A stretch of 64,000 bases of DNA from an uncultured Bacteroidales bacterium. GTDB taxonomy: Bacteria; Bacteroidota; Bacteroidia; Bacteroidales; UBA11471. The translations under genes and the position numbers were made by a program. Within the stretch, counting starts at the first letter, position 1. Every line of letters starts with the position of its first letter. This document shows, piece after piece, positions 16,401-59,538 of this stretch. The notes under the pieces are model-generated. The model made no database searches. It saw only the letters and a program-made list of their open reading frames with translations, and was not told the origin of the DNA. Location: assembly GCA_944325415.1 (NCBI GenBank), contig CALUZW010000001.1, forward strand, positions 1 to 64,000, in the 5' to 3' direction.

Positions 16401-16705
16401 TCTACGGCAGAGGTTACAACTCGCTGGGTTCTGACCGCTACATCGAAGATGCTTCGTTCTTGCGTATGAAGACCATCACGTTGAAATATTCGTTCCCCAG
16501 AAACCTCACACGCAAAATGCACCTCTCGGCTTTTGACCTCTACGTCACAGCTTATGACCTTCTTACATTCACCAAGTACTCGGGACAAGACCCCGAAGTG
16601 GGTGATAAGAAAATTGACGATGCTGGCATTATCCGTCTTGCGGTCGATGGCGCGTCGACACCCAAACCTATCCGTGTGAAATTTGGTATTAACCTCCGAT
16701 TCTAA
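13409..16705 (+). CDS. SusC/RagA-family TonB-dependent outer-membrane transporter 1
   Basis: 1098 residues from ATG 13409 (MKITRKIYLLLL...); an in-frame ATG at 13397 would add four residues. Signal peptide, carboxypeptidase-regulatory-like domain (about 27-110, VLTGKVLEKASGEPLAGASV), plug domain (about 130-245, with IRIRGTQTLNGNADPLIVVDGVPY and GANGVLVI), then a long beta-barrel ending in IRVKFGINLRF with the C-terminal aromatic. It imports oligosaccharides through the outer membrane using TonB energy, in complex with the SusD protein 12 bp downstream. The gene uses few rare codons (CTC, CGT, ACC dominate), as expected for strong expression. Confidence 0.95.
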   Translation: MKITRKIYLLLLAFVVSQAMAAQTVLTGKVLEKASGEPLAGASVFVQNKDERTLASVLVDANGEYRIRIPDEQNLVINFSFIGMQTYTVKYTGQKVLNASLSEDSHELDEVSVSAKRVERNQMGLTPREELGAVQRMSMEGLETAPVTSVAEALQGALSNVDIVTGADPGSNSTIRIRGTQTLNGNADPLIVVDGVPYPVEVDDDFDFASASTDDYSNLLDISPADIESIEVLKDAQATAMWGTKGANGVLVINTKKGAKGKISFSFNTSAEVRKEASTYPLLNAAQYVSMVQDALWNSINDIGYQDAMTEYLPLINSDEINFNPSALLFNEYNVDTNWLDEVSRVGYNTDNTFSMSGGGDKATYRLSLGYLKETGTTIGTDLQRFSTRFNMHYAFSKKLDITSDFSFTYNIRNSSWSEKVNNKEPSSPRSIAITKMPQESPYVMTEDGSARTDTYFTPYDDFGMTFLGNRNYNPVAMVNEAVNRLDSYQTRITFQLHYEILPVLHYYGTVALTANNKRTKKYIPNEVTGVPWVSTSDYSVSNDWYNRASDVTSDQLYLYTENRLVYMQTFNEIHRIVASGILQIEQTSETGYGAQTAGNASYYLSDPSTGGYIVGLSSSEATRRSLLSNFSAQYNLFDRYMFNATFQVEGSSALPSHTRWGIFPTFGIGWQLGDEPFMMNQEFISLCKLRLSWGQTGNAPSGTSPYVGTFSANSSGYLDMASIYPSRIQLENIDWEVVDKWNAGVDFGILNDKVLFTVDLYKNVTNNLLQKGMKLPSSTGFSKLEWFNSGKMTNRGWEFRVDLNDIVKTKDWRFTFSFNISQNENKVNEFPSNLDMENYEFDNGNYAYLIMAGNPLGSFYGYRYKGVYQNVDDTYARDLNGNYIYDIDGKHVIMSNGTQQVYPGDAKYEDINGDGVIDVNDIVYLGNYSPKLLGGFNFRLSYKNWQLSANFQGRVGQKVFNQTRLNSEQMRGNSNQSTATLRRWRNEGDITDMPRALYGRGYNSLGSDRYIEDASFLRMKTITLKYSFPRNLTRKMHLSAFDLYVTAYDLLTFTKYSGQDPEVGDKKIDDAGIIRLAVDGASTPKPIRVKFGINLRF

Positions 16706-33571: not shown

Positions 33572-33586
33572 TCGGTTCCGGTTTGT

Positions 33587-33633
33587 CAAGTAAAAAAGGG
33601 AAGTCCACCGAGTGGACTTCCCTTTTTTACTTG
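33587..33633. terminator. Perfect bidirectional terminator hairpin
   Basis: Arms of 22 bases (33587-33608 and 33612-33633) are fully complementary with a 3-base loop CGA, and carry A6 and T6 tracts on either side of the GC core GGGAAGTCCAC. It ends the M16 transcript. Confidence 0.92.
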
Positions 33634-33646
33634 ATTACAAATATTG

Positions 33647-52490: not shown

Positions 52491-54062
52491 TTACCACACC
52501 GGATTCCAGTCGAGTATACGAGCGGGGTTGCGGTACATCTCGATGAGGGCCGAGTCGGCCGGCCATGTCAGTTGGCGCGAACGCGGGTGGCGGAGGCTAA
52601 CGTCGACGGGATTACCCGCCTTGTCGCGGCTGTTGTATTCGTAGAAGCGTACATGATGTGCCGACCCTTCTATCGCACCCCACCCTTCGGGGGCGATGTT
52701 TTCGAGCGTGCAGTTTATCAGCACGGCTTCGGCATAAGGATATCCGTCGGGCTGGCGGTTCAGCGGCGAGCGGGCCAGTACCGAGCGCGGGTGCGAGCCG
52801 ACAAAGCGGCAGTCGACAAAGATGTTGCCGTGGTTGGCCTCGGTGTTGCGTATCCACATGAAAGGACCGGGCCCTTGCAGCGTACACGCCTTGAAGAAGG
52901 CGGGGCCGCGACCCAGCACCATGTCGCCGCCACCATCGACGATACAGTGTTCGAGATAGACCGAGCCGTTGACTTGCAGTGCATCGCCCGACCCCACTAT
53001 CCGCACATTACGCAGGTAGTTGCGGGCACCCATGAGCAGGAGCCCCTCGGCCTGCCCCTGCAAGTCGGTCTGTATGGTCAGGTTTTCAAACCGCATATCG
53101 TAGCAGTTGTCGGCGGCAAAGGCAGCTCGGCGGGAGGGAAACGTGCCCGGCCATTCGTTGGTCTTCACGTTGATGGGGTGGGGGTTGAAGGTCTCGTTGT
53201 TGGCATAGTGTATGAGTACGCTGTCGCGGTTTTCACCCCGCAGGAGTACGTTCTGCTTGTTGCGGAAGTAGACCAGCTCCTCATAATCGCCGTTGGCGAT
53301 AAGCACAGTCCATCGCTCGTCGCTGAATTCGGGAATGAAGTCCATGGCCCCCTGTACGGTGCAGAAGTCGCCGCTGCCGTCGTGATTCACCGAGAGAAGC
53401 CGCCGTCCGGCCTCAGGGGCGTGACGACGGGTGGTGAAGCGCCAGGTCTTGTCGTCGTAGATGCCGGCAAACTCGCCCAGGGAGAGGTCGAAGACCTCCT
53501 TGTCGATGGTAACATAGTAGCTCTTGCCGTATTCCAGCATGTTGTGGTGGGGGTATATGGTGGCCCGACAGCCGTCGACGATGACAGGGTAGAAGTGAAA
53601 TCCGTCGGAGAATCCGCCGATGATGGTCAGCTGGTACGGCCCTGTCGTGTCTTGCAGTGCGGTGCCCGAGGGGGTGCCGGGGCGGGTATTGGCATTGGTA
53701 ATGCGTTTGCCGTGCGCATGGTAGTCGTACGGTACCGACGAGTAGGTGGCTTTCTGTTTGCGTATCATGTCGGGCTGGGTAGGACCGGCCGGAATGGAGA
53801 GGTCGAGTGAGTCGACCAGCTGTCCGGTCTCGGCATCGAAGATGCGTATCATGCCTTGCCGGTTGATCTGCACGGGATAGTCAAATTCGAGGGTCAGGTG
53901 CGTGTCGGGCGGTACCTCTTCGGAGTGGGGCGCCGGAATGAGTCGGGTTGCTGACGTTGTGTCTTGCCGAGGAGCCGGTGTAGCAGCCCGGGTAGAGGTC
54001 GCTGCCAGAATCCCGATGCCGATGAGGCAGGACAGGGCGGCCGACAGAAGAACTTTTTTCAT
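52491..54062 (-). CDS. Pectinesterase-like secreted protein
   Basis: 523 residues from ATG 54062; upstream codons to 54158 read through the promoter-like repeat and are rejected. Signal peptide (MKKVLLSAALSCLIGIGILAATSTRA). Residues about 50-230 form an Ig-like beta domain (PPDTHLTLEFDYPVQINRQG), and the rest is a right-handed beta-helix with LLSVNHDGSGDFCTVQGAMDFIP, FENLTIQ and ALQVNGSVYLEHCIVDGGGDMVLG, holding the Gln/Asp of pectin methylesterases (DGGGDMVLG in place of the usual GTVDFIFG). Substrate may be methyl-esterified pectin or another esterified glycan, because the active site motif is altered. It stands apart from the 1-30 kb pectin locus. Confidence 0.75.
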   Translation of the reverse strand: MKKVLLSAALSCLIGIGILAATSTRAATPAPRQDTTSATRLIPAPHSEEVPPDTHLTLEFDYPVQINRQGMIRIFDAETGQLVDSLDLSIPAGPTQPDMIRKQKATYSSVPYDYHAHGKRITNANTRPGTPSGTALQDTTGPYQLTIIGGFSDGFHFYPVIVDGCRATIYPHHNMLEYGKSYYVTIDKEVFDLSLGEFAGIYDDKTWRFTTRRHAPEAGRRLLSVNHDGSGDFCTVQGAMDFIPEFSDERWTVLIANGDYEELVYFRNKQNVLLRGENRDSVLIHYANNETFNPHPINVKTNEWPGTFPSRRAAFAADNCYDMRFENLTIQTDLQGQAEGLLLMGARNYLRNVRIVGSGDALQVNGSVYLEHCIVDGGGDMVLGRGPAFFKACTLQGPGPFMWIRNTEANHGNIFVDCRFVGSHPRSVLARSPLNRQPDGYPYAEAVLINCTLENIAPEGWGAIEGSAHHVRFYEYNSRDKAGNPVDVSLRHPRSRQLTWPADSALIEMYRNPARILDWNPVW

Positions 54063-54367
54063 GGTCGTTTCGTTGAATAATAGATGAGATTTCTGATAAA
54101 GATAGCAAAAGCCGGGAGCCGAGCCAAGGAAAGAAAACAAAGTTTTTGTTTCCGGCATAGGCCGAGGCGCCGCCTCTCTTCTGTAAAGATAGCGAATGCC
54201 GGGAGTTGCAGCAAGGGAAAAAGCGAAATTTTCGTTTCCGGCTCCAAGCCGAGCTGTCTGCTGCCTTTTCTGTCCCGCAAAAAAATAGAAAAGCAGATAT
54301 ACACTCCGTAGAGAAAAAACGTATCTTTACCGCCGTTATATATGGTATAACTTTAAACGAACTGATT
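54063..54367. other. Divergent region with duplicated promoter-like module
   Basis: 305 bases between the pectinesterase (-) and D-lactate dehydrogenase (+) genes. Most of it is a tandem imperfect duplication (54097-54270). A TATCTTTA box on the plus strand (54322-54329) may serve the dehydrogenase gene, with no clear -33 element. No gene is called here; the open frame at 54059-54304 on the minus strand only reflects the repeat. Confidence 0.6.
54097..54270 (-). repeat. Tandem imperfect repeat, about 87 bp per unit, each unit with promoter-like boxes
   Basis: Unit 1 runs from about 54097 and unit 2 from 54184, a period of 87 bases. Both share AAAGATAGC, GCCGGGAG, TTTCCGGC and a CTTCTGT or TTTCTGT end. 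On the minus strand each carries TTG then 20 bases then TATCTTTA: TTG at 54127-54125 with the box at 54104-54097, and TTG at 54214-54212 with the box at 54191-54184. The proximal box is 35 bp from the pectinesterase start codon. Confidence 0.7.
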
Positions 54368-55369
54368 ATGGCATTACGGATTGCTTTTTTCGACACAAAG
54401 CCTTACGATGAAGACTCATTCAACCAGATGAACGAGCGCTTCGGCTTCGAGATTGTCTATTTCAAAGGTCATCTCAATCCCAACAACGTGATGTTGACCC
54501 GAGGTTTCGACGTCGTTTGTATTTTTGTAAACGATGTGGCCGATGCCGAGGTGATAAATACGTTGGTCGACAATGGTGTCAAATTGCTGGCGTTGCGCTG
54601 TGCCGGATACAACAATGTCGATTTGGCAGCAGCCGAAGGGCGTCTGCCGGTTGTCAGAGTGCCGGCCTACTCGCCCTATGCCGTGGCCGAATACACCCTG
54701 GCACTGATGCTGGCGCTCAACCGGCGCATACCCCGCGCTACCTGGCGCACCCGTGACGGAAATTTCTCGTTGCACGGTCTCATGGGATTTGATATGCACG
54801 AGAAGACCATCGGCATTATCGGTACGGGTAAGATAGCCAAGGTGCTGATTCAGTTGCTGAGTGGTTTCGGCATGCACATACTGGCTTATGACCTGTATCC
54901 CGATAAGGAGTTTGCCGCAACCTATCATGTCGAATACACTACCCTCGAAGATATTTATCGCCGTTCCGATATTATATCGCTGCATTGCCCGCTCACCGAC
55001 GAGACCCGTTACATCATCAACGATGAGGCCATTGCCCAGATGAAACAGGGAGTGATGCTTATCAATACCGGCCGTGGAAAGCTTATTCATACCCACGCGC
55101 TTATCAATGGATTGAAGAGCAAGAAGATAGGCTATGCCGGTCTTGATGTCTACGAAGAGGAGAGCGGCTATTTCTACGAAGACAAGTCCGACCGTATCAT
55201 CGACGATGATGTATTGGCCCGACTGCTCTCTTTCAATAATGTCATCGTCACTTCCCACCAGGCATTCTTCACCCGGGAGGCTGTGTACAACATTGCCGAG
55301 ACAACGTTGCAGAACGTTGCCGACTTCGAGGCCGGCCGACCGTTGAAGAATGAGGTAAAACATCAATAG
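54368..55369 (+). CDS. ldhA: D-lactate dehydrogenase (2-hydroxyacid dehydrogenase)
   Basis: 333 residues from ATG 54368; in-frame codons before it read the repeat region. It reduces pyruvate to D-lactate with NADH in the cytoplasm. The NAD-binding fold has GIIGTGKIAKVL (about 148-159); catalytic residues are Arg in NTGRGKLI (about 233), Glu in DVYEEE and His in VTSHQAFF (about 297). The ALRCAGYNNVDL segment is typical of fermentative D-lactate dehydrogenases of this size. It is followed 15 bp later by the antiporter gene, which may be co-transcribed. Confidence 0.93.
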   Translation: MALRIAFFDTKPYDEDSFNQMNERFGFEIVYFKGHLNPNNVMLTRGFDVVCIFVNDVADAEVINTLVDNGVKLLALRCAGYNNVDLAAAEGRLPVVRVPAYSPYAVAEYTLALMLALNRRIPRATWRTRDGNFSLHGLMGFDMHEKTIGIIGTGKIAKVLIQLLSGFGMHILAYDLYPDKEFAATYHVEYTTLEDIYRRSDIISLHCPLTDETRYIINDEAIAQMKQGVMLINTGRGKLIHTHALINGLKSKKIGYAGLDVYEEESGYFYEDKSDRIIDDDVLARLLSFNNVIVTSHQAFFTREAVYNIAETTLQNVADFEAGRPLKNEVKHQ

Positions 55370-59384: not shown

Positions 59385-59467
59385 ACCGTTCTGCGGAAGC
59401 GGTACGCTTCTCCGGGAGTGAGAAAATATTTATCGGAAACAGAGATTTACTGTCGCTCCGAAACGGT

Positions 59468-59502
59468 AAAAAAGTTCCATCGGCAGCCGATGGAACTTTT
59501 TC
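59468..59502. terminator. Bidirectional terminator closing the lipid operon
   Basis: 15-bp perfect stem (59469-59483 with 59487-59501) with A5/T5 flanks and a 3-base loop CAG. It lies between the PAP2 gene (+) and the DUF2752 gene (-) and can serve both. Confidence 0.9.
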
Positions 59503-59538
59503 TCTATTAGGGAGATGGGGTGTTATGGAGAAATCCCG

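Follow-up and report, generated by a model that had tools for sequence, protein, structure and literature searches.

The tandem repeat in front of the pectinesterase-family gene of this uncultured Bacteroidales bacterium consists of two units that are rather diverged and belong to a large, dispersed family with a precise insertion site. These units most probably represent a noncoding mobile element of ~65 to 85 bp that carries a promoter and inserts behind a native TATCTTT -7 box, a reading to which we give a probability of nearly 0.8. The original prediction, made from the window alone (the 64,000-nucleotide stretch of contig CALUZW010000001.1 analyzed here), had taken the repeat for a promoter cassette of a kind dispersed in Bacteroidales; the repeats, the cassette, and the dispersal held up, but the strand had not been recognized, nor had the hairpin, the guide, or the identity of the target as a -7 box.

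Both 87-bp units lie on the minus strand of the window, at positions 54,097 to 54,183 (proximal to the gene) and 54,184 to 54,270 (distal). The doubling is real: the two units were identical in 65 of 90 alignment columns (72%), and their alignment scored 35.5, compared to a mean of -5.0 for 2,000 dinucleotide shuffles (standard deviation, 5.0; maximum, 12.5; z = 8.1). Each unit contained TTG-N20-TATCTTTA, with the copies of TATCTTTA 87 positions apart, and the blocks GCCGGGAG (at 54,111 and 54,198) and TTTCCGGC (at 54,149 and 54,235) were exact in both, as had been described. Read directly and against the sigmaABfr consensus, the proximal -7 box TATCTTTA (54,097 to 54,104, minus strand) is ~35 bp upstream of the pectinesterase ATG, and its -33 TTG (54,125 to 54,127, minus strand; CAA on the plus strand) is separated from it by a 20-nt spacer. 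The distal -7 box TATCTTTA (54,184 to 54,191, minus strand), with its own TTG at the same 20-nt spacing (54,212 to 54,214, minus strand; CAA on the plus strand), forms the junction of the two units. The proximal unit is a complete element copy, as judged by its alignment to the distal unit and by its match to a covariance model (CM) of the family (54,097 to 54,180, minus strand; 63.2 bits, E = 1.3e-11); the pectinesterase promoter has its -7 box at the end of this unit. Family alignment placed a guide-like, box-complementary foot, AAGAGAG (family consensus, AAGATAG), at 54,174 to 54,180 of its minus strand, and the inner palindrome GCCGGAAACAAAAACTTTGTTTTCTT (54,131 to 54,156, minus strand), helix 4 of the element hairpin, forms the tip. 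The distal unit is a diverged copy whose guide end is degraded, as seen from the alignment and from its relatives across the genome.

The gene downstream of the units (52,491 to 54,062, minus strand) belongs to the pectinesterase family (PF01095, E = 2.3e-12) and has a weak Big_5 match. Its divergent neighbor, at 54,368 to 55,369 on the plus strand, encodes a D-2-hydroxyacid dehydrogenase, and a further -7-like TATCTTTA, read directly at 54,322 to 54,329, belongs to that side. The units create spurious small ORFs on the minus strand between 54,059 and 54,304 (81 amino acids, with an internal repeat), and such unit-derived ORFs will probably be annotated as hypothetical proteins. Elsewhere in the window, strong inverted repeats at 33,586 to 33,634 (23 nt, perfect, with a 3-nt loop) and 59,456 to 59,514 (29 nt at 79%) are likely terminators.

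A DNA search of the source genome (G000; 2.17 Mb in 28 contigs, 83% complete) found more than 20 further places, mostly arrays of one to five head-to-tail units, so that an absence of further copies, which had been named as grounds for rejecting the cassette, did not materialize. With a CM made from 49 diverse units, at least 59 units were found in the source genome and at least 78 in G313, a complete genome from this order assembled as one contig, among the best 150 candidates per genome. Scoring of the best 11 candidates per genome identified carriers in at least 31 of 393 sampled genomes of the order Bacteroidales, representing at least 18 genera, in agreement with the earlier mention of similar dispersed intergenic repeats in this order. 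The spread was patchy, with one carrier (G003) and five genomes without the family in the genus of the source organism. Scanning named genomes for the pattern yielded 97 stretches, and the carriers included Barnesiella, Paraprevotella, Mediterranea, Bacteroides mediterraneensis, Tidjanibacter, Alistipes, Caccoplasma, Gallibacteroides, and Muribaculaceae. A sibling subfamily with the same plan, ending in CTCG(G)TTTGCATTATCTTTG, was found at L233 and L234 (genomes G074 and G075), L045, L116, and L161. The last of these loci (CALVEV010000052.1) was binned as Gastranaerophilales and has Bacteroidales-type units and promoters; the contig is probably misbinned. At locus L048, positions 2036 to 2104 matched FopS (RF04319 in Rfam), a paralogous Bacteroidetes small RNA, 3' of a four-unit array.

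The exact core pattern had no matches in 2.9 million viral contigs. Two unverified records labeled "Bacteriophage sp." (L315 and L316; MT836672.1 and MT835991.1) were considered as evidence of phage carriage and rejected, because the uvrA-like, dapB-like, and lepB-like genes behind their units make them look like bacterial chromosome. A 46-kb Phocaeicola massiliensis plasmid (L314; OY726013.1) contained one clean unit at 16,436 to 16,515 behind a native TATCTTTG and is a possible interspecies vehicle for the units.

Immediately to the left of single units lay unrelated sequence ending in a -7 box, and TAnnTTT occurred within 25 bp to the left of 54 of 83 arrays, compared to 4% of random windows. 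Empty sites were predicted by fusing the left flank and its box to the right flank and were then searched for in relatives. Two predictions from Paraprevotella clara (L115 and L112) aligned unbroken to P. xylaniphila. The empty allele of L115 is ACACCGATTTTTGTTATCTTTGTAAGG, and the filled allele is CATTATCTTTG[TTCACACGAAGATAGAATGCGG...CACTATCTTTG]TAAGT; L112 is also empty in P. xylaniphila, with small differences near the box. Two further loci were compared over 18 genomes of the Paraprevotella group. At a flavin-reductase-like locus (L153), both P. clara and P. xylaniphila had a filled allele, and the alleles of G068, G069, G072, and G073 were empty, reading AAAATCCGTATCTTTGCACCTTATTATAA and close variants; the miaB locus (L136) was filled in the same two species and empty in most other members of the genus. 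Because these loci were filled only in two sister species among many empty ones, the direction of change was insertion. At L153, G074 and G075 carried the sibling subfamily at the box that the main family uses in P. clara, which suggests that the two subfamilies entered this box independently. Filled loci had the order box, element, box, and their empty orthologs had a single box, with the target kept at the left end; this layout is equally compatible with a target duplication of 7 to 8 bp. P. xylaniphila (G060) also has another dispersed repeat, around GAAAATCAATCTAAGCCAAACGAAAAATCAATCGCCTGAGAATGAAAAATCA, in ~35 places; it is unrelated to the units, and a copy lies upstream of the L101 promoter.

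The window locus was found empty in the congener G003, which has kept both flanking genes; its intergenic region is 167 bp long, compared to 305 bp in the window, and contains no unit but one TATCTTTG, 36 bp upstream of the pectinesterase ATG. By this comparison, the window units appear to be an insertion, or an insertion plus a duplication, at the promoter seen empty in G003. The sequence TATTTTT at 54,281 to 54,287 (minus strand), upstream of the array, may be the decayed native box, given the empty congener promoter TTCTTATCTTTGCG (L299). No outgroup ortholog of the window locus was found that would give the direction of change at this locus alone. The polarized empty sites, the empty window locus in G003, and the at least 59 units across the genome bear out the proposal of a mobile or copied promoter cassette.

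Units were more similar within arrays (0.88) than between arrays (0.81; P = 8e-6), and array copy number varied between congeners. The ends of source genome contigs C6, C9, C11, C14, and C24 lie inside arrays; the assembly is thus interrupted by tandem units, and the copy numbers given are minimum values. At the end of C6 (L025, positions ~1580 to 1653), an Illumina adapter (GATCGGAAGAGCGTCGTGTAGGGAAAGAGTGT...) is joined to a repeat unit, an assembly contamination. The within-array similarity fits local duplication at least as well as it fits reinsertion, and together with the copy number differences it makes recombination-based change of the arrays plausible. It is very improbable, by contrast, that the repeats as a whole are local tandem promoter duplications, formed by slippage or unequal recombination, with the dispersed similarity reflecting convergence on a strong promoter. 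Both the similarity of neighboring units and the varying copy number would follow from such duplication, but single units have unrelated flanks and precise empty sites in relatives, and ~80 bp of similarity, including the hairpin and the guide, across at least 18 genera far exceeds convergence. Local duplication is thus contradicted by the empty sites as an explanation of dispersal; it is likely as one route of array growth, to which it probably contributes in part.

The units point toward genes. A same-strand ORF was next downstream in 128 of 151 distinct arrays, with a median of 27.5 bp from the end of the box to the ATG, and some of the remaining arrays reflect simple ORF-caller errors (L136 precedes miaB and L005 a PNPOx-like gene). 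The primary sigma factor of Bacteroidetes, sigmaABfr, has TTTG near -33 and TAnnTTTG at -7 as its promoter motifs (PMC7366714), and the units matched this motif pair. Of 264 units, 191 had TTTG 19 to 21 nt upstream of the box (188 at exactly 20 nt), compared to 13 of 112 ordinary TAnnTTTG boxes at the same loci. These motifs suggest that the element carries a complete sigmaABfr-type promoter, TTTG-N20-TATCTTTG, which would be active. A G directly followed TATCTTT in 145 of 150 gene-proximal units compared to 53 of 114 internal units, a bias suggesting that, of the units in an array, it is the proximal one that counts. The bias reflects selection on the proximal box, unless the G belongs to the native DNA that follows the insertion. 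The proximal box of the window, followed by A, is one of the few exceptions. The genes behind units, read from their N termini, were mixed and often housekeeping genes with no obvious regulon, and included argS, cutC, rlmH, uvrA, dapB, dinB, priA, and miaB. Homologous promoter sequence thus stands before nonhomologous genes and is present or absent between relatives, as in mobile promoters.

Each unit folds over its full length into one long imperfect hairpin, in which the left foot AAGATAG pairs with the right-end CTATCTT, followed by the stems GGC/GCC, GCA/TGC, AG/CT, and CAAA/TTTG and then the inner palindrome. Two-sided (compensatory) changes were found at 15 of 25 hairpin pairs, compared to 7.0 ± 1.7 in shuffled alignments (0 of 500 reached the observed value) and at most 10 in slid controls. 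In some units the inner palindrome was replaced wholesale (GAAAAC-N3-GTTTTC, AAATAAATTT, AAAAATCAAGCGAGCTTGTTTTTT, or GGGAAAAAGCGAGCTTTTCCC), so that what is conserved is its pairing, not its sequence. This exchange bears on the improbable reading that the units are immobile operator arrays near promoters, in which a regulator binds the inner palindrome and the units were spread by gene conversion and kept for a regulon. GAAAAC-N3-GTTTTC is common upstream of -33, and argS, cutC, dapB, and uvrA recur downstream in several genera, as a regulon would predict. Yet the palindrome can be exchanged for unrelated ones or cut to AAATAAATTT with the rest of the unit unchanged, the downstream genes are a housekeeping mixture, and empty sites are clean, with a box on both sides when filled.

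The covarying hairpin could also act as RNA, whether attenuator, riboswitch, or small RNA, in transcripts from upstream units or from the native promoter, since upstream boxes could transcribe through the next unit. We regard this possibility as highly improbable. The proximal promoter would start downstream of the hairpin, so that transcripts of the proximal unit would not contain it; in Rfam, the unit had no match at the gathering score and the window locus had nothing significant; and empty sites at -7 boxes would be left unexplained.

Under the preferred reading of the units as a mobile element, the left foot is complementary alike to the preceding (target) box and to the unit's own terminal box. 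Native left boxes were TATCTTT in 33 of 38 cases, compared to 21 of 113 (19%) ordinary TAnnTTTG boxes in the same genomes (P = 1.4e-19). Guide and box were also coupled: in four genomes, all 13 units with a TATATTT box had an AATA-type guide, and none of the 197 units with a G- or A-type guide had that box (P = 1e-17). For the two TATATTT arrays whose empty ortholog is known (L009 and L017), the orthologs in G003 have a native TATATTTG. The preference for TATCTTT and the coupling together indicate that the target, which complements the guide, is narrower than a -7 element, though the coupling could stem from selection on hairpin function after insertion. These P values treat units as independent and therefore overstate the evidence, since rows of one genome are not independent. 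Wobble changes between guide and box favored the bottom strand (30 versus 3), and RNA folding energy was lower for that strand in 151 of 189 units. In the other stems, wobble changes showed no strand preference (34 versus 28, by subtraction), so that either strand may be the one that moves.

The main rival reading, unlikely in our estimation, retains the mobile element and assigns its movement to an integron-like tyrosine recombinase acting on the folded strand, as integrases act on attC sites, with TATCTTT as the crossover core and a circle with one box recombining with a chromosomal box. Integron attC arrays are head to tail and consist of folded imperfect hairpins with a short core, features shared by the units. 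Such a recombinase would account equally for the direct-repeat core of 7 to 8 bp on both sides, the head-to-tail arrays, and the imperfect hairpin, and the guide-box wobble changes suit a bottom strand. Core identity alone, however, would not predict the coupling between guide and box together with the target choice, and no recombinase could be tied to the units; the occurrence of tyrosine recombinases in itself says little, given how common they are. The units also differ from attC arrays in having no cassette genes or integrase link, another core, and a guide that matches the target, and no attC consensus was recognized in them.

The proposed insertion behind a guide-complementary box resembles the transposition of IS200/IS605 elements. 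IS608 inserts 3' of a tetranucleotide that is kept to the left of the element. A guide located 5' of the hairpin at each end base-pairs both with this target and with the right cleavage site of the element itself, and altering the guide redirects the insertion (PMC5934647). The units similarly keep the target at the left, end in a target-like sequence, and have a guide 5' of the hairpin with complementarity to the target, to which it is predicted to pair. They differ in having 7 nt of complementarity rather than 4 nt, in a single hairpin that would serve both ends, in carrying a promoter, and in that most carriers are without a Y1 transposase. REP sequences, too, are imperfect hairpins scattered through intergenic regions, and their 5' foot carries a guide. 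Bacteroidetes are rich in TnpAREP subclass 2.4, some of whose REPs possess a "double foot," in which the 3' end bears the reverse complement of the guide (PMC6006769). The foot of the units is AAGATAG/CTATCTT, in contrast to GT[AG]G/C[TC]AC in REPs, and the units are ~80 bp long, have a built-in promoter, and stand at -7 boxes pointing at genes.

Searches for Y1_Tnp (PF01797) were negative in 19 of 25 carriers, one of them the complete genome G313, and none of the 32 Y1 loci had a unit near the Y1 gene, so that no REPtron-like arrangement (a RAYT flanked by REPs) was found there. Among the loci extracted, there was no autonomous version with the same ends around a gene. A RAYT/REP origin was rejected by gene content, Y1_Tnp being missing from most carriers and present in noncarriers. 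Since the units have no GT[AG]G foot and Y1_Tnp was not found in those 19 carriers or near units, the resemblance to IS200/IS605 and REP elements is best read as a likeness of working and not as membership. The units are also short, noncoding, and dispersed, with a direct repeat at the insertion point, as are MITEs of DDE transposons. They have no terminal inverted repeats inside the direct repeat of 7 to 8 bp, however: the left end TTCCCACGAAGATAG.. and the right end ..CGCCTTTCAC are not inverted repeats of each other, and the inverted repeat is shifted and takes in the right box. A DDE MITE with an 8-bp target duplication is ruled out by this end structure.

In the mechanism that we propose, the native box would remain as the left flank, and the last 7 to 8 bases of the element would repeat it, leaving the distance from -7 box to gene start about unchanged while the spacer and the -33 motif become those of the element. 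An element ending in a copy of its own target would allow arrays to extend head to tail, always toward the gene. The 7-nt guide AAGATAG at the 5' foot would pair with the target box (left) or with the element's own terminal box (right). We infer that the element moves as folded single-stranded DNA, finds its target by base pairing between guide and box, as in IS200/IS605 and REP elements, and uses an enzyme supplied in trans.

Genome comparisons have led to the proposal of mobile promoters (Matus-Garcia 2012 and van Passel 2014, as cited in PMC8049555), and the units resemble them, as outlined in that source, in being short repeated promoter sequences before different genes with presence varying between genomes. 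Those proposals drew on sequence similarity; here the insertion site, the ends, the polarized empty sites, the hairpin, and a rule for target choice are defined. No published description of the element was found in a literature search that left out most subscription papers. The element is best classed as a new form of mobile promoter or REP-like repeat, with a fair chance of forming its own class. That this class is a self-targeting DNA-hairpin promoter of ~80 bp, whose guide pairs with the -7 element and whose enzyme is unlike known Y1 transposases, is a tentative proposal that we rate at slightly less than even odds.

The family is common in some gut Bacteroidales and stands before housekeeping genes. 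If the proposed mechanism is correct, promoters would have been replaced serially across the genome and across Bacteroidales, and the guide would set which promoters fall to the element. Should the guide not decide the target, the units would still represent direct promoter replacement by insertion, with many natural before-and-after pairs. Should it do so, they would constitute a naturally occurring system in which single-stranded DNA rewrites promoters and which could possibly be retargeted through its guide.
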